Assembly (NCBI RefSeq): GCF_030915525.1 | Contig: NZ_CP133269.1 | Span: 4,358,501 to 4,422,500 of the forward strand | DNA from: Neobacillus sp. PS2-9 | GTDB taxonomy: Bacteria; Bacillota; Bacilli; Bacillales; Cytobacillaceae | Length of the DNA: 64,000 nucleotides | Reading direction: 5' to 3' | Shown here: positions 1,798 to 22,026 of the stretch, one piece after another | Layout: every line of letters starts with the position of its first letter | Position numbering within the stretch: the stretch's first letter is position 1 | Position numbers and translations under genes: made by a program | The notes under the pieces: generated by a model | Databases searched by the model: none | Told to the model about the DNA's origin: nothing | The model's input: the letters and a program-made list of their open reading frames with translations, nothing else

Positions 1798-2096
1798 ATT
1801 CATATTTATTAGAATCTTTTAAAATTATCAAAATCGATGACGAGAAGAGTAGCTTATATTTCTTGTACCTCAGAGAGCCGGCGGTTGGTGGAAGCCGGTG
1901 TCAGGAACTAAGTGAAAATCATCTCCGAGATGCAAGGCTGAAATTGTTTAGTAAGCCTTTGCCGACCTGCCCGCCGTTAACATGGGACACGTATGATGGT
2001 ACGTTGATCGAGAGCCGCAATTGCATTATTTAATTGCGGAAGTAGGGTGGTAACGCGAGCTAGCTCGTCCCTATCCAATAGGGGCGGGCTTTTTAT
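1798..2096 (+). ncRNA. T-box riboswitch, isoleucine-type
   Basis: A complete T-box leader. Stem I carries AGAGAGCCGGCGGTTGG-like distal elements (from about 1872) and the specifier segment GTGAAAATCATCTCCGAG, in which the specifier codon reads AUC (1918-1920), predicting sensing of uncharged tRNA-Ile. The T-box bulge sequence AGGGTGGTAACGCG is at 2044-2057. The terminator AGCTCGTCCCTAT / ATAGGGGCGGGCT with a T-run is at 2062-2095. Uncharged tRNA-Ile would pair with specifier and bulge, stabilise the antiterminator and let transcription reach brnQ. Known T-box biology plus the AUC codon fit a branched-chain amino acid transporter. Confidence 0.93.
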
Positions 2097-2098
2097 AT

Positions 2099-2243
2099 TG
2101 AAAGCGGAAGCGACCGTTTAGCGACGTATGGACAGGGGCCCAATCCGACTGAGATAAAGGAAACACGAAGAGCGTTAGCGATTGTTGACTTATCGTAGGG
2201 AGGATTGGGATGGCCACTAGTCGCTGGGAGCTGGAGCTGGATA
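2099..2243 (+). repeat. Dispersed long-hairpin repeat, copy 1 (GCTGGAGCTGGA family)
   Basis: Starts AAAGCGGAAGCGACC and ends GTCGCTGGGAGCTGGAGCTGG. The inner arms are complementary (CCCAATCC with GGATTGGG; GATAA with TTATC), so the RNA can fold as one long hairpin. A related copy is at 32880-32999 and a fragment at 37262-37282. This copy lies inside the brnQ leader, between the T-box terminator and the gene. Confidence 0.75.
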
Positions 2244-5446: not shown

Positions 5447-6431
5447 ACTTTTCTATAGAAAAAATAATATTATTCTGTTTACGTGCTTCCTCAGTGATAC
5501 GAAGGACGATTTGACTCCAATTTTTCAAACGACTATATTCTTCATTATTCTTCGTTTCAATGATATTGGCAAAACTTAAACATTCATAGATCATGTTTTG
5601 CTCTTCTTGTTCTACACTCAAAATTTGACTGTCTTTCGAATGGCTGTCAATAAATTTTATTTCTGAAATCGGTGCCGCATCTTCGAGTAAGAAGCTTCCC
5701 TTTTCGCCATGAATTTCACATGGAAGCTCTGAATGGGATATTTTAGAGCAAAGGATGGTGCATACAAAACCTTCATACTCTAATACAAGTGTCCCGCTGC
5801 CATCTACTCCCGTTCTGAGTAGCACGGCATGATAGGTTACCTTCTTAGGCTCACCAAATAAACAGACTGCTAAATAAAGTGGGTACACACCTAAATCAAC
5901 AAGTGCTCCTCCAGAATAGACAGCTGAGAAAATATTCGGTTCTTCTCCTTGTAAGAGTAAATCATAACGAGATGAATAACTGATATATGGTAACATCGCA
6001 CTTCGCAGTGGCCCCGCCATTGCCAATTTTTCCTTAAGGATATGGAAATTAGGTGTATGGATATTACGGATAGCTTCTACTAAATAAACGCCATTTTCCT
6101 CTGCCGTCTTGTACGCCATTTCCAATTCAGCCGAATTTGAAAAAATAGGTTTTTCACAGATAACATGCTTCTTATTTTTTAAGAAAGTTAGTGCTTGTTC
6201 GAAGTGAAGAGAATTAGGAGAGGCAATATATACTGCTTGAATTTCTTCACTTTTGGCCATCTCCTCTAGATTTGTATAAAAATGAGCAGCCTGATGCTTG
6301 TCGGCCATCTGCTTCGCTTTCTCTTCTGTTCGTGAATGAACCCCTACTAACAGGAACTCCCCACTGAGTTTTGCTGCTTGGATAAAAGAGTCCGTGATCC
6401 ATCCTGTACCAACTGTAGCAAAGTTAATCAT
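5445..6431 (-). CDS. Gfo/Idh/MocA-family NAD(P)-dependent oxidoreductase
   Basis: A 328-residue cytoplasmic enzyme. The N-terminal Rossmann domain has the motif VGTGWI (residues 7-12), then AVYIASPNSLHFEQ near 72-85 and the family signature HVICEKPIF near 94-102, with the lysine of EKP being the usual catalytic or substrate-binding residue. The C-terminal half is the dehydrogenase-like alpha/beta domain, with GGALVDLGVYPLYLA near 175-189. Sugars or cyclitols are typical substrates, but nothing nearby narrows it. Start ATG has AGAGGTAATAAG upstream. Its 3' terminator was disrupted by the neighbouring insertion. Confidence 0.88.
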   Translation of the reverse strand: MINFATVGTGWITDSFIQAAKLSGEFLLVGVHSRTEEKAKQMADKHQAAHFYTNLEEMAKSEEIQAVYIASPNSLHFEQALTFLKNKKHVICEKPIFSNSAELEMAYKTAEENGVYLVEAIRNIHTPNFHILKEKLAMAGPLRSAMLPYISYSSRYDLLLQGEEPNIFSAVYSGGALVDLGVYPLYLAVCLFGEPKKVTYHAVLLRTGVDGSGTLVLEYEGFVCTILCSKISHSELPCEIHGEKGSFLLEDAAPISEIKFIDSHSKDSQILSVEQEEQNMIYECLSFANIIETKNNEEYSRLKNWSQIVLRITEEARKQNNIIFSIEK

Positions 6432-6619
6432 CTTATTACCTCTTTCAATTATGTACTTTTCAACTTATCATTTTAACGCATTAAAGACCTGCTTACTAAT
6501 TTTAAGAAAATATTTTTTATTACCAATTAGTTTTGTGCAAGAATAGTTGGGAACAATGGAAAAATATCAGTATTTATGGTATTTATAGATAATAGATAAG
6601 ATGAAAGAGGTTGAAAAGG

Positions 6620-8275
6620 GTGGACAATCACACATCAAATTTTATTAAGGATATTATGATAAAAGATTTAGAATCCGGAAAGCACAATAAAATCGTCACT
6701 CGTTTCCCGCCAGAACCGAACGGTTATTTACATATTGGCCATGCTAAGTCCATATTTATTAACTTTAGCTTGGCAGATGAGTTTAACGGGTTGACTAATT
6801 TACGCTTTGACGATACCAATCCGTTAAAAGAGGATATCGAATATGTAAACTCGATTAAGGAAGATGTGAAATGGCTTGGATTCGAATGGGATAACATATT
6901 ATTTGCATCCAATTATTTCGAAGAGATGTATAATCGTGCCGTTCTTTTAATTAAAAAAGGACTAGCCTATGTGGATGACTTGTCTGCAGATGAAATTCGT
7001 GAATACCGTGGAACATTAACAGAGCCAGGGAAAGACAGTCCTTACCGTACTCGTTCTATTGAAGAAAACCTGGAGTTATTTGAAAAGATGCGTGCAGGTG
7101 AATATGATAATGGTCAAAAGGTTCTTCGTGCGAAAATTGATATGTCTTCACCAAATATCAATTTACGTGACCCGGTCATCTACCGTATTGCGCATGCGAC
7201 CCATCATAACACAGGTGATAAGTGGTGTATTTACCCTATGTACGCATTTGCTCACCCACTTGAAGATGCGATTGAAGGGGTTACTCACTCCATTTGTACG
7301 ATTGAATTTGAGGATCAACGTCCTCTTTATAACTGGGTGGTTGAACAATGCGAAATGGAAAGCACACCACAGCAAATTGAGTTTGGCCGTTTGAATGTAA
7401 CGAATACAGTTATGAGTAAACGTAAACTGAAGCAATTGGTCGAGGAAGGGTTTGTGGATGGCTGGGATGACCCACGTATGCCGACTATTTCTGGGATGAG
7501 ACGCAAAGGTTTCACACCTGAATCGATTCGTGCGTTTGTTCGTGAAACTGGCGTTCATAAGGGTTCTGGTGCGGTTGATTCGCAAATGCTCGAGCATTTT
7601 GTTCGTGAGGATTTAAAATTAAAGGTACCACGTACGATGGGTGTGATTAATCCGTTGAAGGTGGTTATCACCAATTATCCAGAAGGTCAAATTGAATTGC
7701 TGGATGCGGAAATTAACCCTGAGAATCCTGAAATGGGTATGCGGAAAATCCCATTCTCTCGTGAAATTTATATTGAAAAAGACGATTTTATGGAGGAGCC
7801 TCCAAAGAAATACTTCCGTCTGTTCCCTGGCAATGAGGTCCGTCTCAAAAATGCATATTTTATTACCTGTCAGGAAGTCATTAAGGATGAGAATGGTGAA
7901 GTAGTCGAGCTTCGATGCACGTACGATCCTGAAACAAAGAGTGGAACAGGATTTACTGGAAGGAAGGTAAAAGGAACGATTCATTGGGTAGAATCTACTC
8001 ATGCTGTTCCTGCTGAATTCCGCCTGTATGAGCCACTCATTTTAGATGCAGATAAGGATGACAGTGATGAAGGAAAAACTTTCCTTGATCATGTCAATCC
8101 AAATTCGCTTGAGGTGTTACAAGGCTTCGTTGAGCCAAACATGAAGGAAAGCCGACCACAGGAAAAGTTCCAATTCTTTAGACATGGTTACTTTAACGTG
8201 GATCCGAAACATACCACAGTAGATAAGCTTGTGTTTAACCGAATTGTTTCGTTGAAGAGTTCATTTAAAATATAA
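6620..8275 (+). CDS. glnS: Glutaminyl-tRNA synthetase
   Basis: A class I aminoacyl-tRNA synthetase of 551 residues that charges tRNA-Gln with glutamine. It has the HIGH motif in [15 protein letters not shown] (HIGH near 38-41), the FDDTNP element near 73-78, the KMSKS equivalent VMSKRKL near 260-266, and a two-lobed C-terminal anticodon-binding region. GTG 6620 is preferred because AAAGAGG lies nine bases upstream; a TTG at 6611 is too close to it. Codon use is biased toward CGT and GGT, as in highly expressed genes. Many Bacillaceae lack GlnRS and make Gln-tRNA by transamidation with GatCAB, so this gene may be an acquired addition. Confidence 0.95.
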
Positions 8276-9859: not shown

Positions 9860-10513
9860 TTATATGCCATAGCCTAACAACCCTTTTCTAACTGCATATT
9901 CCACCAGTTCAGGTCTCGTTTTCATCTGAAGTTTTTCCATTAATTTTCCTTTATGGGTCTCCACTGTTTTCACGCTGATGACAAGTTGTTCCGCAATTTC
10001 TTTATTGGCGTACCCTTTTGCTGTCAAGGTTAAGACTTCTTTCTCACGCTCAGATAAAAGATTATACGTGTCATTACCATCTTGTTTCATACTGCTTAGA
10101 TATTCTTCCATTAAACGCTTTGTTGCGGACGGATGAAGGTACGCATCCCCTTTTGCAACAGATTCGATGGCCGACATGAGCTCATCATGTGGGGCGCTTT
10201 TTAGAATACAGCCCGATGCTCCCCCTTGTATGGCACGAAATAGGTACTCTTCATCATCGTGCATCGTTAAGATTAAAATATTGATCTCAGGCTTTTGCTT
10301 TTTTAATTCTGTCGTTGCTGAGAGCCCATCTTTTCCATGAGGCATACTCAAATCCATGACAACAACATCTGGATTAAGCTTCAGGGCTTTTTTGATCCCT
10401 TCATTGCCTTCCGATGCTTCACCAATCACTTCCATTTCTGGATTTGTGTTTAGTAACATTTTTAAGCCCATTCGAACTACAGCATGGTCATCAACCAGCA
10501 GGATTCTTATCAC
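9860..10513 (-). CDS. NarL/NreC-family response regulator
   Basis: A 217-residue DNA-binding regulator. The receiver domain occupies residues 2-120, with acidic pocket DD8-9, phospho-accepting Asp54 (VVMDLSMP) and Lys near 104 (CILKSA). A LuxR-type helix-turn-helix occupies about 150-215 (LSEREKEVLTLTAKGYANKEIAEQL, with the recognition helix in SVKTVETHKGKLMEKL). GTG start with AAAGGGGAG upstream. It lies between two histidine kinases in one operon. A TAGGGG-N4-CCCCTA palindrome, close to the published NreC box, precedes the nearby molybdoenzyme operon and is its likely target. Confidence 0.9.
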   Translation of the reverse strand: MIRILLVDDHAVVRMGLKMLLNTNPEMEVIGEASEGNEGIKKALKLNPDVVVMDLSMPHGKDGLSATTELKKQKPEINILILTMHDDEEYLFRAIQGGASGCILKSAPHDELMSAIESVAKGDAYLHPSATKRLMEEYLSSMKQDGNDTYNLLSEREKEVLTLTAKGYANKEIAEQLVISVKTVETHKGKLMEKLQMKTRPELVEYAVRKGLLGYGI

Positions 10514-10526
10514 TCTTAGCTCCCCT

Positions 10527-11195
10527 TTATGCCCTATTTAATAACGGAAGAGATAGTTCTATACATGTTCCTTCTCCTATTTTAGAGGAAATGTTACACT
10601 GTCCGCCAGTTAGAAGCATTCTTTCTTTCATAGCTTCAAGTCCTGATGATGGATGATTTTGGTCATGCTCCTCAGGTCGAAATCCTTTGCCATAATCATT
10701 AATGGTGATTTTTAGCATATTTTCAAACCAAATAAAATTCATTTTCACATTGCAGGTATCTGCATATTTGGCAATATTCGCAAGCGCCTCTTGGCATACA
10801 CGGAATACTGTAATACTCGTTTTCTCTGGAATATCTTTCTCTTCACCTGTGGATTCTAGGTCTACAAGAATTCCAAAGGTGGAAGTATATAACTTAATAT
10901 AGCTCTTCATTGCGGAAAGTAAACCGAGAGTGGTTAGGGTAGGCGGATGCAATTCCACAGACAGCAGCCTTATTTCCTGAATTGTCTTCTCTATCAACTG
11001 CGACATTTCGCGGACATAATTTTTCATGAACGGTTCGTTTGCACCTGTTTCAATAAACTGTAACCCTGTAAATATACTATACAGATTTTGTCCGACGCCT
11101 TCGTGCAGTTCCAATGCGATTCGTTTAATTTCTTCTTCTTGTGACTGAATAATATATGAGCTGATCTGCTGCTGTTTTGATCTCAATTGATCCAT
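10527..11195 (-). CDS. Sensorless histidine kinase (HisKA_3-HATPase)
   Basis: A 222-residue cytoplasmic kinase with almost no N-terminal sensor region. The HisKA_3 domain has the phospho-accepting His near residue 31 in ALELHEGVGQNLYS; the residue after His is Glu, where Asp is more common. The HATPase domain shows CQEALANIAKYA, ITINDYGKGF and GLEAMKERMLLTGG. ATG 11195 is chosen because GGAGGTGCAAA precedes it; two upstream in-frame starts overlap the ribosome site. First gene of the operon with the response regulator, GAF protein and PAS kinase. It must take input from a partner protein, the GAF protein being an obvious candidate (inference). Confidence 0.85.
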   Translation of the reverse strand: MDQLRSKQQQISSYIIQSQEEEIKRIALELHEGVGQNLYSIFTGLQFIETGANEPFMKNYVREMSQLIEKTIQEIRLLSVELHPPTLTTLGLLSAMKSYIKLYTSTFGILVDLESTGEEKDIPEKTSITVFRVCQEALANIAKYADTCNVKMNFIWFENMLKITINDYGKGFRPEEHDQNHPSSGLEAMKERMLLTGGQCNISSKIGEGTCIELSLPLLNRA

Positions 11196-11377
11196 TTTGC
11201 ACCTCCTACTTCCATTATTCATAAATAAATAGAGTGTTTTCGTAAAAATTTTTGCTTTTTTACTTATATCAATACTTAGGAATCAAATCCAAGTGTAAAA
11301 TTTACATCTTACGAATGAATCCCAATGATTTATCAGCGATTCAGAAATCACAACTTTTTAGAGTAAGAGAAAATATA

Positions 11378-11416
11378 AAAAAAGGCAGGTTCTTTTTAAA
11401 AGACCTGAACCTTTTT
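11378..11416 (-). terminator. Terminator of the molybdoenzyme operon
   Basis: On the minus strand AGGTTCAGGTC ... AAGAACCTGCCT can form an imperfect stem followed by TTTTTTTATATT. It overlaps the stop codon of the last small gene. Confidence 0.6.
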
Positions 11417-11677
11417 TACTGTATATGTTAAGCCGCTTTCCTGGTCAAATGCAGACCAGTGATTCTCTGACTGACTTACCTCACTTGCTAACAGCACCGC
11501 GAGAAAATAGAAATCGTCAAAATAGTAACGAATATGAGTGCCATCTGGACAGTATTGCACTTTTTTTACTGTTTTTTTGACCGTTGGAGCTTGATCTCCA
11601 CCCTCGGAGTCTTGAATGGCAATTTCAACAGGTACACCCACAAATCGTCCTACATCCTCTAACTTAATGAGTTCCAC
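11396..11677 (-). CDS. Small soluble protein of unknown function
   Basis: A 93-residue acidic protein not recognised by family. It reads as a mostly beta protein (VGVPVEIAIQDS, VKKVQYCPDGTHIRYYFDDFYFLAVLL, TYTVKKVQVF) with a single cysteine and no membrane segment. It is the last gene of the molybdoenzyme operon and overlaps the preceding gene by 14 bases, so it is translated with it. The position suggests an accessory or maturation role for the complex, which is inference only. Confidence 0.7.
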   Translation of the reverse strand: MELIKLEDVGRFVGVPVEIAIQDSEGGDQAPTVKKTVKKVQYCPDGTHIRYYFDDFYFLAVLLASEVSQSENHWSAFDQESGLTYTVKKVQVF

Positions 11678-11975
11678 AGCTATTACATCCTCTCAATACA
11701 GGATAGATGAACATCTTATAGCCCTGAAGATACTCCCAAAATTTCTCGCCAGCATTTTCCTCGATGTACTGAATGGTTTCCTCCTCGGATGACCAATCAC
11801 TCATCCCCTTAATTTCAGCCACAACCATTTCTGCTCCATCTATCTTTTTTTCTTCCAAAAACCAATTCAACCGTTTTTTTGCAAAGGTACTCTTCAATAA
11901 CTCATCAATTTCTGTACTAAAATCGCCTGCTTCCGGACGGACGAAACAAAAATCTATATATGTTTCACTAGTCAT
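11664..11975 (-). CDS. Small protein with C-terminal CxxC, unknown function
   Basis: A 103-residue acidic protein with no recognised family. The body is predicted helical (STEIDELLKSTFAKKRLNWFLEEKK, EETIQYIEENAGEKFWEYLQG), and it ends in a CNSCGTH metal- or redox-type motif. It overlaps the preceding 63-residue membrane protein by eight bases and the following gene by 14, so all three are translationally coupled. It could be a private chaperone for the molybdoenzyme, in the way NarJ or NapD act, but it does not resemble them by sequence. Confidence 0.7.
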   Translation of the reverse strand: MTSETYIDFCFVRPEAGDFSTEIDELLKSTFAKKRLNWFLEEKKIDGAEMVVAEIKGMSDWSSEEETIQYIEENAGEKFWEYLQGYKMFIYPVLRGCNSCGTH

Positions 11976-12159
11976 TGACCTTCACACCTTTTTTATAAAT
12001 GAGGATTGCGACTGGAAATAAAATTACGTTAATAACAGCGGCAATAATCGTATTTGTATAATTTTCATAGAAATATTGATGAACCATATATTGTGTAAAA
12101 ATAATATTGAGCATCAATACGGCTAGTAGAAATGCCACAGGGATATAACTACGCTTCAT
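11968..12159 (-). CDS. Two-helix small membrane protein
   Basis: A 63-residue hydrophobic protein with two predicted membrane helices (residues about 6-24 and 38-55) and a positively charged C-terminal tail (IYKKGVKVND). Overlaps the end of the Rieske gene by 11 bases. No histidine pairs that would mark a haem site. Probably a small structural subunit of the neighbouring quinol-linked molybdoenzyme complex, inferred from position. Confidence 0.7.
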   Translation of the reverse strand: MKRSYIPVAFLLAVLMLNIIFTQYMVHQYFYENYTNTIIAAVINVILFPVAILIYKKGVKVND

Positions 12160-12673
12160 AACGCTTCACCCCCACGGCATAAACGGCACCGTTTTCTTCT
12201 TTTACATAAATTTCAGGAAGTGGACGTCTAGGCGGACCGGCAATTGGTGCACCCGTTTCTACGTCAAATTTACCATGGTGGCACGGGCATAGCATTTCGC
12301 CTTCATCCTTTTTCCAAAACACAGGACAACGTAGATGTGTACAGGCATTTTGGTAGGCAACGTATTTTTTTTCAGACAGTCTGATTAAAATCGCGCTGTC
12401 ATGTTCACCTGGGAATGCAAAGTCAACCGCATCTCCAATTGGTAATGCCTTTACATCAACAATTTTCTGCTTTGGATATTTTTTGTCTCCCAGCCCATTC
12501 AGTTCTTTTGCTGCTAACACTCCCCATGGAAGAGAGGAAACGGCAAATACTCCTGCAGCTCCAACCAATGTTTTCATAAATCCACGACGGTCTAATTTTC
12601 TTTCGTTATTGCGGTTTATATTATGAGTATAGTTATCTTCTTCGAACGGGATTTTATTATTCTTATCTGTCAT
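12149..12673 (-). CDS. Tat-exported Rieske 2Fe-2S protein
   Basis: A 174-residue Rieske protein. A twin-arginine signal with RRGFMK (Arg29-Arg30) is followed by one hydrophobic segment, so it should be exported folded and stay anchored on the outer face. Cluster ligands are Cys111-x-His113 and Cys129-x-x-His132 (CTHLRC and CPCHHG); the extra Cys116 and Cys131 match the disulfide pair of bc1/b6f-type Rieske proteins. Preceded by TTAGGAGGGATTAAC. In quinol oxidases such proteins take an electron from quinol next to a membrane cytochrome b, here plausibly the NarI-like subunit. Confidence 0.9.
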   Translation of the reverse strand: MTDKNNKIPFEEDNYTHNINRNNERKLDRRGFMKTLVGAAGVFAVSSLPWGVLAAKELNGLGDKKYPKQKIVDVKALPIGDAVDFAFPGEHDSAILIRLSEKKYVAYQNACTHLRCPVFWKKDEGEMLCPCHHGKFDVETGAPIAGPPRRPLPEIYVKEENGAVYAVGVKRYEA

Positions 12674-12684
12674 GTTAATCCCTC

Positions 12685-13245
12685 CTAAAACAATTTAGTG
12701 ACGCCCTGTAATATACCAGGAAGATTCACTTTTACGTTTGTTTCGCCTTCTAAATAAGGCATGCTTGTTACCCACTTACCATTATCCAAATTAAACTGCT
12801 TTTGTTTTGCTTCAATTTCTTCATCGGTTAACCATTGAAGAGTATTAGATGGACACACACTCGCACACATTGGCGGGATGCCATCCTTTGTACGGTCAAT
12901 ACATAGATCGCACTTATACATTAAATTCTGCTCGGTATCAAACTTCGGTATACCGTATGGGCAGGCAATTGTACAGTTTTGACAGCCAATACATTTTTCC
13001 ACAAGAGCCGATAGTACGGCACCTGTTTCGTGAATTTGAATGGCTTGTGCCGGGCAGCTTCTTGCACATGCTGGATTCACACAGTGAAGGCACATAAGAG
13101 GCATCGTTTGACGGTTAACAAGCGGGTTCACATCGTAAACATAGTTACGGTTACGTTCCTCATGTCCTCCGCACTGTGTACAAGCCGCCAAACAGGAGCG
13201 GCATCCTATACAGTTTTCAAGTTCTAAATATAGCCTCTTTTTCAT
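12685..13245 (-). CDS. Four-cluster ferredoxin subunit (DmsB/NrfC/HycB type)
   Basis: A 186-residue electron-transfer subunit with four cysteine groups for 4Fe-4S clusters: CIGCRSCLAAC near 14-24, CLHCVNPACARSCP near 52-65, CIGCQNCTIACPYG near 85-98 and CDLCIDRTKDGIPPMCASVCP further on. There is no signal peptide, so it is cytoplasmic and should wire the molybdenum subunit to the membrane subunit. The ATG overlaps the stop of the catalytic gene (TAAATG). Next gene is the Rieske protein. Confidence 0.9.
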   Translation of the reverse strand: MKKRLYLELENCIGCRSCLAACTQCGGHEERNRNYVYDVNPLVNRQTMPLMCLHCVNPACARSCPAQAIQIHETGAVLSALVEKCIGCQNCTIACPYGIPKFDTEQNLMYKCDLCIDRTKDGIPPMCASVCPSNTLQWLTDEEIEAKQKQFNLDNGKWVTSMPYLEGETNVKVNLPGILQGVTKLF

Positions 13246-15414
13246 TTACTGCACCTTCTTCATTTCTAGTTTTTCAATCTGTGCGGCACACGCTTTGAAT
13301 TCCGGCATCCGAGAAATTGGATCAAGAGCCGCAATTGTTAAGAGATTAATAGATTTATCGTGACCGAAATGGTATGGAACAAATACCGTATCTTTTCTAA
13401 TGGCTTCCGTAATTTTCACTTTATATTCTGCTTTGCCTCTACGAGTAAAAAGAAGAACATATTCTTCATGCTCGATCTTGTATTTAGCTGCTGTTTCTGG
13501 ATGTACTTCTACATATGGCTCTGGACACATATCACGTAAGAATTGAATTCGGCGTGTTTGGTTTCCAGATAGATAGTGATAGACCACACGTCCTGTTGTT
13601 AAGCGTAATGGATATTCTTCACATGGCTCTTCAGCAGGCGGTCGGTATGGTAAGGCACATATTTTAGCTTTACCATCTGGATGATAGAATTTCTTATCTA
13701 AGAACATATGTGGTGTTCCTTTGTCATTTTCATCTTTACAAGGCCAGAATACACCATCTTGCTTTTCGATCTTATCCCATGTGGCACCATAATAATCTGC
13801 ATAGCCACCTTTTGATGCTAAGCGGAACTCATCCGCTACATCTCTTGCTGTTTTTAAATGAGAGAAATACTTTCCTCTTCCAAGGCGCTCAGCAAGTTCT
13901 ACTTGCATCTGCCAGTCTGGCTTTGATTCGCCAATTGGCTCTTGTGCTTTATTAATCTTGATAATACGGCCTTCAATATTTGTTACTGTCCCTTCGTCCT
14001 CAGACCAAGTCACACTTGGGAGAATAACATCGGCGAATTCAGCTGATTCTGAAAGGTAGAAATCTGCACAAACCATAAAGTCCAAGCCTTTCATCGCTTT
14101 ACGAACAAAGTTTAGGTTTGGTGCAGAAACTGCTGGATTTGAACAAAGCAGATACAAACCGCGAATTGTTTTTTGCTCCATTAATTCAAACATTTCATAA
14201 GCTGAAACACCTGGCTGTGGCATTTCTTCAGGAGTAATACCCCAAACCTGGCATACTTCTTCAACGTGTTTTGGATTCGTCAGTTTGCGATAGCCAGGAA
14301 GTAAATCTGACTTCTGTCCATGCTCACGGCCACCTTGACCATTTCCCTGACCAGTAAAGGTCGCGACACCTGATTTTGGACGGCCAATTTTCCCAGTGAC
14401 AAGCGCCATGTTTGTGTAGGCTGAAACATTATCCACACCCTTATGCTGTTGTTCAATTCCACGAGCAAACATGACAACAGCATTTGGTGCTTTTCCGTAA
14501 ATTTCAGCAGCACGTATAATCTTCTCTGGAGCAACACCAGTAATTTGACTTGTATATTCTGGAGTGAATTCTTTCACTAATTCTTTTGTTTCTTCAAAAC
14601 CATTTGTATGGTTGTTAACGAATTCTTCATCTGCATAACCATTTTGAATCAATAAATTTAAAATTCCGTTCGCAAGTGCTAAGTCTGTTCCTGGTCTTAA
14701 GTCCAAATGAACATCTGCTCTTCTCGCAATTGGTGTTTCACGAGGATCAGCTACAATTAAGTAACCACCTCTCTCTTGTACATGCCAAACACGGAACATC
14801 GAAGTCGGATGGCATTCAGCCGTGTTACTTCCCGCAATAAACAAGCAATCTGTTTCGTGGATATCTGTCCATGGTAGTGTCGAACCACGATCCACTCCGA
14901 AAGAACGAAGGAAGCCACCTGCCGCACTAGACATACAGAATCGGCCATTGTAGTCAATGTAACGTGTTTGCATAGCAACACGAGCGAATTTTCCGGTTAA
15001 ATAACATTTTTCATTGGTCATGGATACACCACTAAAAACAGATAATGTATCTTTCCCGTAGTTTTCTTGTAGCTCGCCGAACTTTTTCGCAATTAAATCA
15101 TAAGCTTCATCCCAAGTTGCTTCCCGGAAGCCCTCTTTTGTCCCTTTTAAGGAAGCATCATCTCTTATTAATGGTTTTAAGATCCGATCATCATGATTTG
15201 TTTGTTGGTAAGCCGTTACCCCTTTAGGACACATCTTTCCAACCGTTACCGGCCAATCATAACGTGGTTCAACCCCAATAATCTTGTTTGTTTTTGTATT
15301 TACACGTAAGTTCATCCCACATTGCATTCCACAGTAGCTGCAGTGTGTTTTTACGAGTGTTTCATTTGGATGACGTACATTCTCTATTTCTTTAAAAAAC
15401 TTATCCCTTTGCAT
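13246..15414 (-). CDS. NasC-like molybdopterin oxidoreductase, catalytic subunit
   Basis: A 722-residue bis-MGD enzyme. The N-terminal 4Fe-4S site is Cys25-x2-Cys28-x3-Cys32 ... Cys62 (CSYCGMQCGMN, KMCPKG). The likely molybdenum ligand is Cys160 in YNGRFCMSSAAGG, which closely resembles assimilatory nitrate reductases of the NasC type rather than formate dehydrogenases with a Cys/Sec in other context. The C-terminal molydop-binding domain begins near 600 (YPLRLTTGRVVYHYLSGNQT). No Tat signal, hence cytoplasmic. Start ATG overlaps the upstream gene by 14 bases, with AAGGAGG ten bases before. Nitrate is the best guess for substrate, but the membrane and Rieske partners are unlike a normal assimilatory enzyme. 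Confidence 0.88.
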   Translation of the reverse strand: MQRDKFFKEIENVRHPNETLVKTHCSYCGMQCGMNLRVNTKTNKIIGVEPRYDWPVTVGKMCPKGVTAYQQTNHDDRILKPLIRDDASLKGTKEGFREATWDEAYDLIAKKFGELQENYGKDTLSVFSGVSMTNEKCYLTGKFARVAMQTRYIDYNGRFCMSSAAGGFLRSFGVDRGSTLPWTDIHETDCLFIAGSNTAECHPTSMFRVWHVQERGGYLIVADPRETPIARRADVHLDLRPGTDLALANGILNLLIQNGYADEEFVNNHTNGFEETKELVKEFTPEYTSQITGVAPEKIIRAAEIYGKAPNAVVMFARGIEQQHKGVDNVSAYTNMALVTGKIGRPKSGVATFTGQGNGQGGREHGQKSDLLPGYRKLTNPKHVEEVCQVWGITPEEMPQPGVSAYEMFELMEQKTIRGLYLLCSNPAVSAPNLNFVRKAMKGLDFMVCADFYLSESAEFADVILPSVTWSEDEGTVTNIEGRIIKINKAQEPIGESKPDWQMQVELAERLGRGKYFSHLKTARDVADEFRLASKGGYADYYGATWDKIEKQDGVFWPCKDENDKGTPHMFLDKKFYHPDGKAKICALPYRPPAEEPCEEYPLRLTTGRVVYHYLSGNQTRRIQFLRDMCPEPYVEVHPETAAKYKIEHEEYVLLFTRRGKAEYKVKITEAIRKDTVFVPYHFGHDKSINLLTIAALDPISRMPEFKACAAQIEKLEMKKVQ

Positions 15415-16483
15415 TCTGATTTGCCTCCTTGACTTTCACTTGGTGCGTTGCGAATCCTGAGAATCTTGAAATACGATATTTTCTACGACATGGAAGACAT
15501 AATTCTGCAAGATTGAAGCCATCCTTCATATCGAATTCCATCTCATTGACTCCCAATACTTGGATCACATCGTTTGATTGTTCAACTGATACAAATTTCT
15601 CTCCGCATACCTTACATTCTTTCATATGTTGTTCTCCATAATGTTCACGGTAGTTTCTTGCAAACACGCTCATTGGACGGAAAGGAATATGAGCAAGCTT
15701 TCCAAATGGCAGGTAGATTAAAGTAACAATGACTGAGAATTGGTGAATGAGTGACATCTGTGGCTGCATCCAGCCATGTAGAAATACGTTTTGGACAGTT
15801 AATAAAAGTCCAGTAATGGAAATAAACAATAATAGATACAGGGGCAAGAAATCATACATAAACTTTTGTTCCGCTCTTGCTTGCATATTTCTCATACGGC
15901 GGTAAAGGGCCATACAAACACCGGCCGTAACCATAATCGCTGCAATATTTAACGCATTATAGGATAACCAGCCGATGATTCCATCTGCCTTAACCTGCAT
16001 AATATTCATTCCGAATAACACAATTGTATAGTAGCCATTGTCTTCCATTGTGAAGTACATCCAGCTAAAGACGAGTGGGAAAGTGACAAGGCAAGCAAGC
16101 ACACAGCCCCAGCCTATTAATATATGTTGTACCCAGCGGTAAATTCCCCGATTGCGAATGAAATCGTAAATCGCTAAGTGGCTTACAGCTGTTTTAGGTG
16201 TGCTTTTTCTAAAAATGAGCTTCAAGCCCTTTTTAATAAAAATTTTAGTTGGTGGTCTTTCGCCCCAAGCAATAAATCGGTAGAAGAAACCGCCGATGAA
16301 TACGATTGTTCCAATCATATATCCATATAGATTTAAGTCGACATGTGTAAACATTCTTGTGCCGATAAAGGTTAAAATCACAAGTCCGACAACCGTTAAA
16401 AACATTGATTTAGCAAAATGTGATGCAAATGCATCATTGACCGAACGTCCTTGATTTTTAGTCGTTGAGATATTCGCTTGCAT
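15401..16483 (-). CDS. NarI-like membrane cytochrome b subunit with CxxC tail
   Basis: A 360-residue membrane protein with about six predicted helices. Histidines placed for haem are His120 in YRWVQHILIGWG, and His247 and His265 in HQFSVIVTLIYLPFGKLAH, the latter matching the H-x17-H 'PF-K-x-x-H' element of NarI/DsrM-type subunits. The C-terminal 80 residues are soluble and carry Cys290-x2-Cys293 and Cys329-x2-Cys332, a likely zinc or iron knuckle not found in ordinary NarI. First gene of the operon, so it probably anchors the catalytic and ferredoxin subunits and handles quinol electrons. GGAGGAACTCC precedes the ATG. Confidence 0.82.
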   Translation of the reverse strand: MQANISTTKNQGRSVNDAFASHFAKSMFLTVVGLVILTFIGTRMFTHVDLNLYGYMIGTIVFIGGFFYRFIAWGERPPTKIFIKKGLKLIFRKSTPKTAVSHLAIYDFIRNRGIYRWVQHILIGWGCVLACLVTFPLVFSWMYFTMEDNGYYTIVLFGMNIMQVKADGIIGWLSYNALNIAAIMVTAGVCMALYRRMRNMQARAEQKFMYDFLPLYLLLFISITGLLLTVQNVFLHGWMQPQMSLIHQFSVIVTLIYLPFGKLAHIPFRPMSVFARNYREHYGEQHMKECKVCGEKFVSVEQSNDVIQVLGVNEMEFDMKDGFNLAELCLPCRRKYRISRFSGFATHQVKVKEANQNAKG

Positions 16484-16638: not shown

Positions 16639-17826
16639 TTATCGCTCTCGAAGAAGATATTTTTTCCTCCAAGAATAAATTAACAAAATCAATCCAATTA
16701 ACATTTGCACTGTGAATAAAGTTGCATCCCAAAAAGGAAGAGATGTCGGCCCTTCCAAGTAGCCTGGCATAACCCTTTTCACGGCAAACAATAATTGTGG
16801 AACATAAAAAACAACATATAAGCTGAGCGTTAGAACTACGCCAATGAAATAAAAAATGGAGTAGGTGAAGATCATCCTTCTTTCCCCTTCGAAAACAACT
16901 TCTTCAGTTTTCTGGGATTTAAGAAAAGGAAACCATCTTTTAATCATCTGTTGGGCATTTTCCATCAGGTTATAACAGCCAGTTACATTTTCAAAGACGT
17001 AGTATAGATCTGTTTTCATGTAAATACAGAATTGGTATACGAGACGAATAAAGGTATCTAATACTATGAGCGACATGATACTCAGGAAAATCCCTGATCC
17101 ATTTGTAAAAATCACCTGACTAACCAAGGCAAAGAAAAGTATAACCATATCAAAACAAAGTCCAGCTAGATATAAAACATTTCTGTCCTTAGAAGGCAGC
17201 TTCCAAACTGCAGACATATCTGTCTCAAGGACCACCAATATTAACCTGTGGCCAAGCTCTAATCTAGTAGGGAGATTATTTGCCCTCATTGCTAGAATAT
17301 GACCGAATTCATGGATAAGCACGGTACAAAATGTCACCACAAGCCACGTTAAGATGTTTAATACCATGTAATTAAAAATGAAGATATCTTTGTAATGCGG
17401 GAAAAGACTTGGATGGGAAACTAATAAAACTATATTTATTATGAATAATCCAACGTAAAAACCTAAAGTCAGCTTATTAAAAAAGAATTCCCCCAATTTA
17501 GGTGAAATCCACTGAAAACCTAAATGTTCCTTTATCTTTTCTGGTAAAGTGACTTTTACTCCATCAATTTCAGCAATGAGTTGAAGCTGTAGCAGCTGTT
17601 CAGCAAAATCGATGAGGTCTACTTCTTCGTTAGGATATTTTTCTTTAAGGTGTTTCTCGATATCCCCTAATGATTCTCTATTATTAATTAATGTTATTGC
17701 ATCAATACAAATCTTTGGCATTTCGTAGTACTCGCCGGAATTAATATCTTCTACTATATAGTGTTTTTTCTCTTCCCTAATTTCAATGGGGACTAATGTA
17801 AGTATTGAACTAAGTGTTACATCCAT
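16639..17826 (-). CDS. M50 metalloprotease with N-terminal RRE (PqqD-like) domain
   Basis: A 395-residue membrane protein. Residues about 20-95 look like a PqqD/RRE peptide-recognition domain (YEMPKICIDAITLINN, SLGDIEKHLKEKYP, EVDLIDFAEQLLQLQLI). Six or so membrane helices follow, with the zinc site His172-Glu173-x2-His176 (VLIHEFGHILAM) and Asp226 in LAGLCFDMV as probable third ligand, the site-2-protease (M50) arrangement. RRE-fused M50 proteins accompany ribosomally made, modified peptides, for example YydH beside YydF. Here a 21-residue peptide gene ends 75 bases upstream on the same strand, separated by a terminator hairpin. The ribosome site (AGGAACGGTG) is modest. Confidence 0.82.
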   Translation of the reverse strand: MDVTLSSILTLVPIEIREEKKHYIVEDINSGEYYEMPKICIDAITLINNRESLGDIEKHLKEKYPNEEVDLIDFAEQLLQLQLIAEIDGVKVTLPEKIKEHLGFQWISPKLGEFFFNKLTLGFYVGLFIINIVLLVSHPSLFPHYKDIFIFNYMVLNILTWLVVTFCTVLIHEFGHILAMRANNLPTRLELGHRLILVVLETDMSAVWKLPSKDRNVLYLAGLCFDMVILFFALVSQVIFTNGSGIFLSIMSLIVLDTFIRLVYQFCIYMKTDLYYVFENVTGCYNLMENAQQMIKRWFPFLKSQKTEEVVFEGERRMIFTYSIFYFIGVVLTLSLYVVFYVPQLLFAVKRVMPGYLEGPTSLPFWDATLFTVQMLIGLILLIYSWRKKYLLRER

Positions 17827-17855
17827 TTAAACACCGTTCCTAACTAGTATTCTAT

Positions 17856-17894
17856 AATAAAAAACAGGATGCTAGATTTGCAAAGCATCCTGTT
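17856..17894 (-). terminator. Terminator between the short peptide and the protease
   Basis: AACAGGATGC (17885-17894 on the complementary reading) pairs with GCATCCTGTT (17860-17869), then TTTTTATT on the minus strand. If leaky, it would give more peptide than protease, as in many precursor-first peptide operons. Confidence 0.85.
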
Positions 17895-17900
17895 AATAAC

Positions 17901-17966
17901 TTATGGTGCCCAAAAACAAATCCAACAACCTGTCACCCTAATCTTTTTTAATTTACGGATTTTCAA
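17901..17966 (-). CDS. 21-residue cationic Trp/Cys-rich peptide, putative precursor or pheromone
   Basis: A 66-base frame on the minus strand: TTG start at 17966, TAA at 17901-17903. Its ribosome site AAGGAGGTGA (17973-17982) is a ten-base perfect match to the 16S anti-Shine-Dalgarno, nine bases from the start. The N-terminal half contains seven Lys/Arg residues and no acids; the C-terminal half is TGCWICFWAP, with a CxxC and two Trp. It begins 27 bases after the HD-GYP stop and is followed by a terminator and the RRE-M50 protease gene. The layout resembles short pheromones processed by M50 enzymes, or a RiPP precursor. A leader peptide for attenuation is the main alternative. Confidence 0.72.
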   Translation of the reverse strand: MKIRKLKKIRVTGCWICFWAP

Positions 17967-17993
17967 AGAAAATCACCTCCTTAAACTAAAATC

Positions 17994-19154
17994 TTACTTG
18001 ACTAATGAAATTTCTTCATTTATCTCTTTAACAGATTTATCATGGAGTTTTTCCCATGATGGATAAGTCTGTTGAAATAAATCCACCAATTCAGGATCAA
18101 ACTGGGTACCCCTACCATCTACTATCCGTTTGTACGCTTCTTCAATGGATAATGCGTATCTATAAGATCGATTGGATGTCATTGCATCAAATGCATCTGC
18201 TACTGCTGCAACTCGGGCAAGAAATGGAATATTCTCACCTTTTAATTGGTCTGGATACCCCTTACCATCCCAACGTTCATGATGTGAGCGAATAACTTCG
18301 ATACTACTATTTAATTGAATAACTTTTGAAACTGCTTCTGCTCCAACATTTGTATGAGATTTAATAATTTCATATTCTTCATTTGTAAGTTTCGTAGGTT
18401 TCATCAAGATTTGATCTGGAATATGAATCTTCCCAATATCATGAAGTAGACAAGCAAATTCAAACGACTTTAACTCTTCTTCCGAATATCTTTCAGTGGC
18501 TCTTGCTAGTTCGAGAGCATAGCTCGCCACACGTTCACTATGGCCCCTTGTATAAGGGTCTTTAAGCTCAAGTGTAGCAATAACTCCCTTTACAATACCA
18601 GTAAGTTGTTGATCATACGATGTTTTTATTGCATTTACATAAGCTTGGAAACGTGATAATAAAACAAATGAAAATACAGATAATGTACAAACTAATAATA
18701 TTCCTACATAAACAATTGGGGGTTTAATAACTAATCCAATAACAACATATTTCAAAAGTAATCCAACTGACGCAACTATCATAAAAGGCTTACTTACAAA
18801 AATAGGAGATAGTAATAGCCAGTAAATTTCTCCTGCACTACCACCTCTATAGTCATTTGCGTGACCACTATAAGTAATAGCTTCGTTAATAAATGTGATG
18901 AAAATATAACTAATAAAATATATATATTTTACATAATTTGATTTTTGCTTTTTAATGAGGTATTTCGCTATTGGGATTAATGCAAACATGATTAAATATA
19001 CCCAGTATACAATTTTCCCTGATGTATTATCTTTTGGAGTGATGATGTTAAACACTAAATCAAAGGATAAAGTAATAATATAAAATAAAATTAAAAACCA
19101 TTTTAACGTCTGAGCTTCTTCATTTCTTATGTTAGGATCTATCAATTTTTTCAT
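17994..19154 (-). CDS. Membrane HD-GYP phosphodiesterase-like protein
   Basis: A 386-residue protein. The N-terminal 200 residues form about six membrane helices, and the C-terminal domain is HD-GYP: CLLHDIGKIHIPD carries the HD pair, and HHERWDGKGYP the GYP motif, with the further metal-binding ADAFDAMTS. Such proteins hydrolyse cyclic di-GMP. ATG 19154 is chosen because GAGAGG lies seven bases upstream. The membrane domain (LSFDLVF, YWVYLIMFALIPIAKY, YVKYIYFISYIF, SPIFVSKPF, LLSRFQAYV) is clearly related to that of the two kinases just upstream, so all three may sense the same signal. Co-transcribed with the 21-residue peptide downstream. Confidence 0.88.
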   Translation of the reverse strand: MKKLIDPNIRNEEAQTLKWFLILFYIITLSFDLVFNIITPKDNTSGKIVYWVYLIMFALIPIAKYLIKKQKSNYVKYIYFISYIFITFINEAITYSGHANDYRGGSAGEIYWLLLSPIFVSKPFMIVASVGLLLKYVVIGLVIKPPIVYVGILLVCTLSVFSFVLLSRFQAYVNAIKTSYDQQLTGIVKGVIATLELKDPYTRGHSERVASYALELARATERYSEEELKSFEFACLLHDIGKIHIPDQILMKPTKLTNEEYEIIKSHTNVGAEAVSKVIQLNSSIEVIRSHHERWDGKGYPDQLKGENIPFLARVAAVADAFDAMTSNRSYRYALSIEEAYKRIVDGRGTQFDPELVDLFQQTYPSWEKLHDKSVKEINEEISLVK

Positions 19155-19347
19155 TAGTAAACCTCTCGTTAGGGTAGTCATAGTTTTAATAGCACAAATC
19201 TACACTAAATATATATACTTTTTGACACTTTCCTACATTATAAAACATTTGTATTCATTTAAATACCAGTAAATCAACAAGATTTATGTATAAAATAGAA
19301 ATATTTCATCAAACGTTGTATAATATTACCAATTTACCTAAATCTCT

Positions 19348-20586
19348 TTACCTATGGATAATAGGTAATATCACTTCCACGGAGGTCCCTTTTTCAGGTT
19401 CACTTTCAATTTTAAGTTTTCCTAAGTGTTCTTTAACAATTTGATTGGTTACCAGCAAGCCTAGCCCCGTTCCATCTTCTTTTGTTGTAAAAAACGGTTC
19501 TCCTAAATTAAGAATGTTTTCATCCTTTATTCCACACCCTTCATCTTGAATAGAAATGTGCATTTTCTGTTTTTCTACAACTTTTACATTTATTTTTATA
19601 CATCCCCCATCAGGCATTGCTTCTATAGCATTTTTGATCAAATTCAAGAATACTTGTTTTAGTTGATTACTATCACAATCAATGGGCGGTAAAGGCCCAG
19701 CCATGATTGTTTCAACTTTAATCCCTTGTCTCTCAGCCTGCTGTTGGGTGATTGATAGTGTATAAGCGATAATTTCCTCAATACTAGCTTTTTCGAATTT
19801 GACTGCTCTAGGTTTACCAATGTACATCAAATCATTAACAATTGAGTTAATCCTATCAATTTCTTGAATCATGATGGGATAGAAATCGTTTGTATTTGGG
19901 TATCTTTCTTGCTGTAGCTGTGTAAATCCTTTTAGGGATGATAGGGGATTACGTATTTCATGACCAATAGCTGCAGCCATTTGTCCAATAACAGCTAACT
20001 TTTCCTTTTTACGTAGTTCTTCGTGAACATTTGTTAAGGATTTTATATACGAGTAAAACCGTATCAGCATAACATAAGCAATTGCAGATAGAATTGAATA
20101 TATTACTATTGAAATGAACACCTGAAAATCATGCAGGATTAATCCTAAGATTAAATATTTCCCAACCATTCCTATTGAAACCGTCCAAAAATATTTTTTG
20201 CTCACAAAAATCGGACAAAATAGAACAAATAAAACCTCTATTAAATGCCCACTGGTATAATGTTTAGGATTACCTACGAAAATGATTAGAGTATTAATAA
20301 AATCTATACCTAAATAGCTAAAGATATAGATATATTTAACTAGATATAGATTTCCTTTTTTAGCAATCCACATCGCTATCGGTAAAAGAATGATTAATAA
20401 AACATAAATCCAATACCCCAATCCTTCTCCAGGACTTCCCATTTTTTCACTTTTTAGAGTTTTAGGTAGTATGTAGTATACTAGAATGTCAAATGAAAGA
20501 TATACAATATAAAATGACCACAAAAATAGCTTTACTGCTTTCCTTTCTTCTAATATTAATTGGGGACTCTTGATGCTCTCTTTCAT
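19348..20586 (-). CDS. Membrane histidine kinase, sporulation-kinase type (copy 1)
   Basis: A 412-residue kinase. About six membrane helices span residues 15-185 (LSFDILVYYILP, YWIYVLLIILLPIAMW, YLVKYIYIFSYLGIDF, CPIFVSKKYF). HisKA follows with His in AAIGHEIRNPLSSLKGFTQLQ, then HATPase with NLIKNAIEAMPDGG, DEGCGIKDE and GTGLGLLVTNQIV. The catalytic core resembles Bacillus KinA-E phosphorelay kinases that feed Spo0F. Start ATG follows GGGAG. The paralogue 200 bases upstream is very similar throughout. A tandem Spo0A-box-like site precedes it at 20691-20707. Confidence 0.9.
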   Translation of the reverse strand: MKESIKSPQLILEERKAVKLFLWSFYIVYLSFDILVYYILPKTLKSEKMGSPGEGLGYWIYVLLIILLPIAMWIAKKGNLYLVKYIYIFSYLGIDFINTLIIFVGNPKHYTSGHLIEVLFVLFCPIFVSKKYFWTVSIGMVGKYLILGLILHDFQVFISIVIYSILSAIAYVMLIRFYSYIKSLTNVHEELRKKEKLAVIGQMAAAIGHEIRNPLSSLKGFTQLQQERYPNTNDFYPIMIQEIDRINSIVNDLMYIGKPRAVKFEKASIEEIIAYTLSITQQQAERQGIKVETIMAGPLPPIDCDSNQLKQVFLNLIKNAIEAMPDGGCIKINVKVVEKQKMHISIQDEGCGIKDENILNLGEPFFTTKEDGTGLGLLVTNQIVKEHLGKLKIESEPEKGTSVEVILPIIHR

Positions 20587-20790: not shown

Positions 20791-22026
20791 TTAATTCTGA
20801 TGAATTGGCAATATGATATTCACATTTGTGCCCTGTTTTGGTTCACTTTGTATGTTCAATTCACCTGAATGTTCTTTAATTACTTGATTGGTCACTAATA
20901 ACCCTAACCCTGTCCCGTCCTTTTTCGTTGTGAAAAACGGTTCACCTAGTTTAGGAATGTTCTCATCCTTAATGCCATAACCTTCATCCTGGATGCAGAT
21001 GTACATCTTCTGTTTTTCAACCTTTACTTTTATGTTTATATTACCTCCTTCAGGCATTGCTTCGATAGCATTTTTAATTAAATTTAAGAATACCTGTTTT
21101 AGTTGTTTACTATCACAATCAATCAGAGGTAACGAACTATCTATGATGGTTTCGACTGTAATCCCTTGTCTTTCAACTTGATGCTGGGTGATTGATAGAG
21201 TATACGATATAATTTCCTCAATACTAGCCTTTTCAAAACTGATAGTCCTAGGTTTACTAATATACATTAAATCATTAACAATAGAATTTATCCGGTCAAT
21301 TTCCTGAATCATAATGGGGTAGAAATCATTTGTATTTGGATATTGTTCCTGTTGAAGTTGTGTAAATCCCTTTAGTGATGATAGGGGATTACGTATTTCA
21401 TGCCCGATAGTTGCAGCCATTTGCCCAATAACTGCTAACCTTTCTTTTTGTAGGAGTTCATCGTGAACACTAGTTAAAGATTGGATATATGAATAAAACC
21501 GAACTAAGATAACGTAAGCAATTCCTGTTAATATTGCATAAATAACTGTTGGAACAATTACCTGAATATCCTGTAAAATAACTCCTAGAATTATATACTT
21601 GCTAATCATCCCCAATGTGACGGTCCAAAAATACTTTTTACTTACAAAAACCGGACAAAAAAGAACAAATAAAACCTCCACTATATGTCCACTTGCAAAT
21701 GGTTCTGTACTTCCTAAATAAATTTTTAGTGAATTAATTAAATCTAAACAAACATAACTATAGAAATAGATGTATTTTACTAGATATATGTTGCCCTTTT
21801 TCATAATCCATATAGCAATAGGTAAAATAGCAATAATAAACAAATAAATCCAAAAGCCTAATCCTTCTTCTGGATTCCCAACCTTATTATTTTTTAATGA
21901 GTTTGGGAATAAGTAATAAGTAAAAAGATCAAATGAAAAATAAACAATATAAAATAACCATAAGAATAATCTTACTGCTTTCTTCTCTTCCACAATTAAT
22001 TGGGGGTTCTTGATATAGTCTTTCAT
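20791..22026 (-). CDS. Membrane histidine kinase, sporulation-kinase type (copy 2)
   Basis: A 411-residue paralogue of the preceding kinase, collinear over its whole length: same membrane domain (FSFDLFTYYLFP, FWIYLFIIAILPIAIW, YLVKYIYFYSYVCLDL, CPVFVSKKYF), same HisKA (ATIGHEIRNPLSSLKGFTQLQ) and HATPase (NLIKNAIEAMPEGG, GTGLGLLVTNQVI). The extracytoplasmic loops and the helices differ most, so ligand specificity may have diverged. Start ATG follows AAGGGAG. The promoter-side 0A-like site is also duplicated, so gene and control region were copied together. Confidence 0.9.
   Translation of the reverse strand: MKDYIKNPQLIVEEKKAVRLFLWLFYIVYFSFDLFTYYLFPNSLKNNKVGNPEEGLGFWIYLFIIAILPIAIWIMKKGNIYLVKYIYFYSYVCLDLINSLKIYLGSTEPFASGHIVEVLFVLFCPVFVSKKYFWTVTLGMISKYIILGVILQDIQVIVPTVIYAILTGIAYVILVRFYSYIQSLTSVHDELLQKERLAVIGQMAATIGHEIRNPLSSLKGFTQLQQEQYPNTNDFYPIMIQEIDRINSIVNDLMYISKPRTISFEKASIEEIISYTLSITQHQVERQGITVETIIDSSLPLIDCDSKQLKQVFLNLIKNAIEAMPEGGNINIKVKVEKQKMYICIQDEGYGIKDENIPKLGEPFFTTKKDGTGLGLLVTNQVIKEHSGELNIQSEPKQGTNVNIILPIHQN

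Follow-up and report, generated by a model that had tools for sequence, protein, structure and literature searches.

In a stretch of 64,000 nucleotides from Neobacillus sp. PS2-9 (contig NZ_CP133269.1, positions 4,358,501 to 4,422,500; hereafter the window), we identified a conserved three-gene module, present in many soil-dwelling relatives of Bacillus, that is composed of a membrane sensor with a MASE12 and an HD-GYP domain, a gene for a 21-residue peptide, and an M50 membrane protease with a domain resembling the recognition element (RRE) of ribosomally synthesized and post-translationally modified peptides (RiPPs). Our preferred reading, to which we assign a probability of about 50%, is that the peptide docks on the RRE-like domain, is cut by the M50 protease and is then sensed by the HD-GYP protein. 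The core of the module comprises the following features:

17994..19154, minus strand: MASE12 membrane sensor with HD-GYP cyclic di-GMP (c-di-GMP) phosphodiesterase domain (predicted), directly upstream of the peptide gene; open reading frame (ORF) open to 19181
17972..17983, minus strand: Shine-Dalgarno sequence TAAGGAGGTGAT of the peptide gene, with AAGGAGGTGAT at 17972-17982, 5' of the TTG start
17904..17966, minus strand: peptide coding sequence, 21 residues, TTG start, stop codon at 17901-17903 (from the ORF list and conservation)
16639..17826, minus strand: M50 site-2-type membrane protease, N-terminal RRE-like domain at about residues 8-88, HExxH at residues 172-176

The 66-base ORF at 17901-17966 encodes LKIRKLKKIRVTGCWICFWAP, whose C-terminal end is TGCWICFWAP. 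An earlier reading made from the letters alone (the sequence-only reading) had proposed this gene, and we confirmed on the window sequence its TTG start, its 21 residues, its C-terminal end, its Shine-Dalgarno sequence and the gap of 27 bases that separates it from the HD-GYP stop (which ends at 17994). The gap between the peptide gene and the M50 start is 74 bases in the window. We take AAGGAGGTGAT to be complementary to the tail of the 16S rRNA, and those peptide genes of relatives that were printed are also preceded by a purine-rich sequence of Shine-Dalgarno type. Searches of Pfam and NCBIfam with the window peptide returned no family, and the gene may well have been overlooked by gene callers that apply a length limit. 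The family follows the pattern M-K-I-R-K-L-x-K-x-K-x-T-C-W-[WIVL]-C, after which comes a short variable tail.

A frame broken in relatives, named beforehand as an observation that would speak against the gene, was not encountered. In all 80 named loci, the peptide gene is found upstream of M50 (77 by script, three by eye); these loci are the best 80 of 116 relatives and include Neobacillus, Mesobacillus, Virgibacillus, Sporosarcina, Gracilibacillus, Oceanobacillus, Alkalihalobacterium and others. Among 40 genomes including that of the window, the M50 gene was found in 24 (in 23 of the 24 genomes of the window's genus and in one genome of another family), each time with the short ORF upstream. 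All loci taken together, 166 from sets that overlap in species, yielded 113 distinct peptides of 18-26 residues from 145 loci; the 21 loci without a motif match are 20 loci of a sister RRE-M50 class (see below) and L015, which does carry the peptide. In a held-out test, a profile built from the peptides of 22 Neobacillus loci matched 70/70 loci outside Neobacillus, which were placed by handle or title and partly represent the same species twice, and 0/20 sister-class loci. In one Neobacillus mesonae locus (L100), an insert at 6070-7950, with a frame that resembles a group II intron reverse transcriptase, separates the intact peptide gene from the M50 gene.

The peptide and the protease also mark exactly the same genomes. 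In a sample of 397 genomes at the order level, the peptide-class M50 was present in 43 (at least 395 bits, the next class reaching at most 245 bits), and the peptide profile, built partly from genomes that it was used to search, matched 43 at E values of 2.3e-8 or lower, with the next match at 0.009; the two sets are identical (Fisher p ~1e-58, uncorrected for relatedness). The constancy of the peptide's position in the 80 loci, the profile matches in 43 genomes and the held-out result of 70/70 versus 0/20 led us to reject a chance ORF. The MASE12 domain (PF20971) exceeded its cutoff in 52/397 genomes, namely in 42 of the 43 peptide/M50 genomes and ten others, and the sole peptide/M50 genome without a match (G088) has its locus at a contig end. 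Each of the ten others (L183-L192) has one MASE12 gene; in the stretches retrieved around it, a motif marks it as a kinase in four, the look of its C-terminus does so in six and it is an HD-GYP protein in none. All ten are devoid of the peptide, the peptide-class M50 and MASE12-HD-GYP. In one of them (G288, locus L185), the MASE12 kinase lies amid flanking genes that by eye are like those of the window, with the three-gene core missing. Peptide and MASE12 are also missing from a Neobacillus genome without the M50 gene (G006), and MASE12 was found in 0/14 control genomes.

The peptide is under selection as a protein. Over 116 distinct DNA sequences, the ratio of nonsynonymous to synonymous differences (pN/pS, uncorrected for saturation and with related pairs counted many times) was 0.166 for codons 2-11, 0.021 for CWxC and 0.879 for the four tail codons; by this measure purifying selection acts on the leader and on CWxC and leaves the tail nearly free, which is the combination of conserved leader and variable core expected of a RiPP locus. 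Leu6 is invariant although it is written with six synonymous codons, and together with the low pN/pS this drift of synonymous codons argues that the amino acids are conserved rather than the RNA. The residues C, W and C occur in 113/113 distinct peptides, but the selection motif itself contains them. The second Trp is replaced by Ile, Val or Leu in 7/113, the window peptide included, and in 106/113 one of Phe, Trp, Tyr and Leu stands five positions after the first Cys.

The sequence-only reading had also named an RRE-bearing M50 protease as the partner of the peptide, which the 80/80 loci and the 43 shared genomes bear out, with the RRE recognised from its predicted fold. The protein has the HExxH motif and the transmembrane core of a site-2 protease, and H172, E173 and H176 are invariant across 24 M50 proteins. 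In sequence, the RRE-like domain scores 13.5 bits against Pfam PqqD (cutoff 23.4), a model that reaches E ≤ 0.1 in 3/24 family members; in predicted fold, it consists of strands and a three-helix winged fold like that of PqqD and lasso B1, and its matches include lasso-peptide RREs solved with leader peptides, TbiB1 among them. The predicted protein is an RRE-like domain, weak in sequence and clear in fold, joined to a site-2-protease core, whose fold matches include SpoIVFB and RseP. Acidity of the RRE was not discriminating as a specific sign, and a sequence search of the PDB with the M50 profile gave 0 matches.

The HD-GYP protein, likewise foreseen as a third member, is as constant as the protease. 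The gene next upstream of the peptide encodes a MASE12-HD-GYP protein in 80/80 loci, with the GYP motif in 80/80 and HDxGK in 79/80; MASE12 was called here by homology to the three N-terminal domains of the window, without Pfam. The window protein carries the HD and HHExxDGxGYP motifs of a predicted c-di-GMP phosphodiesterase, and among the matches listed in a fold search the HD-GYP domain alone was found. The peptide start ranges from 20 bases ahead of the HD-GYP stop to 69 bases beyond it, with an overlap in 46/80 loci and a position within 40 bases in 78/80. In the window, the MASE12 domain is shared, a point absent from the sequence-only reading, with two histidine kinases encoded further upstream:

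19348..20586, minus strand: MASE12 histidine kinase 1, associated, not obligatory
20791..22026, minus strand: MASE12 histidine kinase 2, associated, not obligatory

By strict motif, 48/80 loci have a MASE12 kinase gene further upstream, and we found no concerted evolution of MASE12 between HD-GYP protein and kinase. Clustering of all ORFs of at least 100 residues within about 8 kb of the module in the 80 loci gave two families present in 80/80, the MASE12 proteins and the M50 proteases, and all others in at most 45/80. Among these ORFs, no family of modifying enzymes, immunity proteins or exporters consistently accompanies the module, in agreement with the earlier remark that no radical-SAM or cyclodehydratase partner adjoins it; lacking a modifying enzyme, the locus is not classed here as a RiPP locus. 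Downstream in the window (9860-16483) lie a molybdoenzyme/Fe-S/Rieske operon and sensor-regulator genes, which stand beside the module in 40-45/80 loci.

Two further features bear on expression of the module:

17863..17894, minus strand: Rho-independent terminator hairpin between the peptide and M50 genes, with a GGATGC..GCATCC stem conserved across genera
19232..19242, minus strand: possible -10 element (TATAATGTAGG) of the HD-GYP/peptide transcript

The terminator had been predicted in this interval and was located at 17863-17894; it was absent from the output of an automated hairpin scan restricted to loops of 3-8. A hairpin with a T-run follows the peptide ORF in 131/145 loci (a redundant set) at a median distance of 8 nt. 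The stem GGRTGC..GCATCC is near-identical across genera despite a variable loop and flanks, and the window holds a single GGATGC..GCATCC hairpin. An Rfam search returned one match, with 27.9 bits against a required gathering score of 60. Upstream of HD-GYP, a -10-like ATAATGTAG was found in 37/79 regions (shuffled expectation 0.6; HD-GYP starts chosen by a simple rule), which suggests that HD-GYP and the peptide are probably on one transcript. Expression of the M50 gene is probably reached through the terminator.

The joint occurrence of the peptide, M50 and HD-GYP genes makes it plausible that the product is a dedicated peptide signal, and it is plausible too that the M50 protease alone matures it. 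In the mechanism that we propose, the peptide would be translated from the HD-GYP mRNA while the terminator keeps expression of the protease behind it low. The peptide's basic half (KIRKLKKxK) would dock on the RRE, and its aromatic CWxC half would go into the membrane interface, where the M50 site would cleave it. The freed CWxC fragment, perhaps closed by a disulfide, would target the HD-GYP protein's membrane domain and, where MASE12 kinases are present, perhaps theirs as well, so that the peptide level would set c-di-GMP and perhaps kinase output. Maturation by the M50 protease is supported by the anatomy of the locus; release and sensing we infer.

An alternative explanation is that the peptide stays in the cell as a small subunit or brake inserted beside the HD-GYP sensor, and that the RRE-M50 protease switches the sensor by destroying it. 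The peptide is short with a basic N-terminus and an aromatic end, shows no apparent signal sequence and no conserved exporter family, and its start overlaps or adjoins the HD-GYP stop; SpoIVFB and RseP, among the fold matches of the protease, cleave cell-internal substrates. We nevertheless consider this account doubtful, as a near-neutral tail would be unexpected in a subunit whose contact surface is fixed and as RRE domains elsewhere guide precursors to maturation (PMC7470986).

That M50 matures an antimicrobial or another RiPP-like product, any further enzymes being encoded elsewhere in the genome, is unlikely. Sister RRE-M50 genes do adjoin ThiF or ATP-grasp enzymes, but the constant neighbour of the peptide is a signalling protein, and the lack of any conserved immunity, exporter or modifying family among the ORFs of at least 100 residues in the 80 loci led us to reject as the main reading a bacteriocin, which the sequence-only reading had also offered. 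Slightly less probable is a redox, metal or cofactor device, in which CWxC would bind a metal, haem or thiol partner, or give a Trp-Cys cofactor, read by MASE12: the very low pN/pS of CWxC (0.02) and the motif-selected constancy of its residues fit such a role, but the conserved core has no metal or redox gene and the molybdoenzyme operon is found in only 43-44/80 loci. The idea of a leader-peptide attenuator, in which ribosomes stalling at Trp/Cys codons would govern the terminator before M50, finds in these loci its short ORF with Trp codons followed by a terminator-like hairpin, but we rejected it as very improbable, as the terminator stem alone and no alternative antiterminator pairing was predicted in 30 aligned sequences, codons vary synonymously under constant amino acids, the second Trp is replaceable and the RRE on the protease would be left unexplained. 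Both the bacteriocin and the attenuator are weaker explanations than a docked, cleaved and sensed peptide.

The sister class of RRE-M50 genes, which lacks the peptide, indicates the company that such proteases keep. A ThiF relative was found in 18/20 loci (L067-L084), its identity checked by Pfam or NCBIfam in four of them; the remaining two are a fragment, L085, and L086, which carries a RimK-type ATP-grasp gene. In L086, a peptide of TTxALGEEGG-like repeats (2018-2218, minus strand) adjoins the ATP-grasp gene and the sister-class M50; we take this peptide to have the look of a graspetide, and the locus resembles that of a graspetide equipped with an M50 protease. No precursor peptide was found for the ThiF-associated loci. 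When four sister proteases were compared to models, the daptide protease model matched three and that of the YydH/LiaK epipeptide protease also matched one of these three, all below cutoff. In a plasmid search, 27 records matched, and in the two that were opened ThiF adjoins the homologue (Streptomyces) or lies two genes away (Priestia, probably the same plasmid as L079). These neighbours and model matches suggest that RRE-M50 proteins often accompany peptide maturation.

The peptide was present in 19/135 sampled genera, as counted from the order-level table, a breadth that the sequence-only reading had not noted. Matches in 299 genomes at the phylum level were limited to the window's own genome and one weak partial match (41 bits), and a search of phages gave no match. 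The M50 tree recovers Virgibacillus, Sporosarcina, Alkalihalobacterium, Oceanobacillus and Paucisalibacillus as single groups and Gracilibacillus weakly so. Mesobacillus does not hold together, and sequences labelled Bacillus or (once) Paenibacillus fall among Neobacillus. This pattern suggests that the module has been inherited mainly vertically. Sporosarcina (L144, L152, L158), which belongs to another family, stands beside Oceanobacillus with a support of 100/100, so at least one transfer of the module looks likely.

Similar to the module, the epipeptide system of a Bacillus relative places a small precursor (EpeX/YydF) beside an M50 membrane protease (YydH/EpeP) (PMC7026026, PMC10885120), and its locus also has a radical-SAM epimerase and an ABC transporter, neither of which is conserved with the peptide and RRE-M50. 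Unlike that system, the module has an RRE-like domain on its protease and an HD-GYP partner. The daptide intramembrane metalloprotease NF041824 is the best named NCBIfam model for the window M50, far below cutoff (15.9 bits against 300), and no daptide enzymes were seen in the locus. Lasso-peptide B1/B2 proteins share the RRE fold, as the TbiB1 match indicates, and their RRE presents the leader to a protease (PMC10885120). That protease is a cysteine protease, whereas the module has an M50 protease and no cyclase. Pheromones of the SHP/cCF10 type are short signals made by the M50 protease Eep from signal peptides; the module likewise joins an M50 protease to a short putative signal, but its peptide is basic and has no signal sequence, its protease is a dedicated one bearing an RRE, and its candidate receptor is a membrane HD-GYP protein. 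AgrD, AgrB and AgrC unite a short Cys-containing peptide, a membrane protease and a polytopic sensor in one locus, by description the same trio of parts, with a kinase where the module has HD-GYP as constant partner.

M50-matured peptides and RRE-guided proteases are already known, and what appears new is their combination and the HD-GYP partner. Among the papers listed in a search of the open-access literature, with most subscription papers outside its coverage, we found no description of the peptide or the module and none of a ligand for MASE12, and we know of no report of this combination or of this partner. We tentatively raise the possibility of a new pheromone class, in which a basic peptide of 18-26 residues without signal sequence would be matured by an RRE-guided intramembrane protease alone and read by a membrane HD-GYP protein, with MASE12 kinases as extra receptors. 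If our reading is true, a single enzyme would suffice in this module to mature a peptide, MASE12 would gain a candidate ligand, and Gram-positive bacteria would have a small peptide that connects directly to c-di-GMP; were the peptide a pheromone, this would amount to a direct peptide-to-c-di-GMP circuit. The module also suggests that RRE-proteases may serve as pointers to overlooked small peptides.
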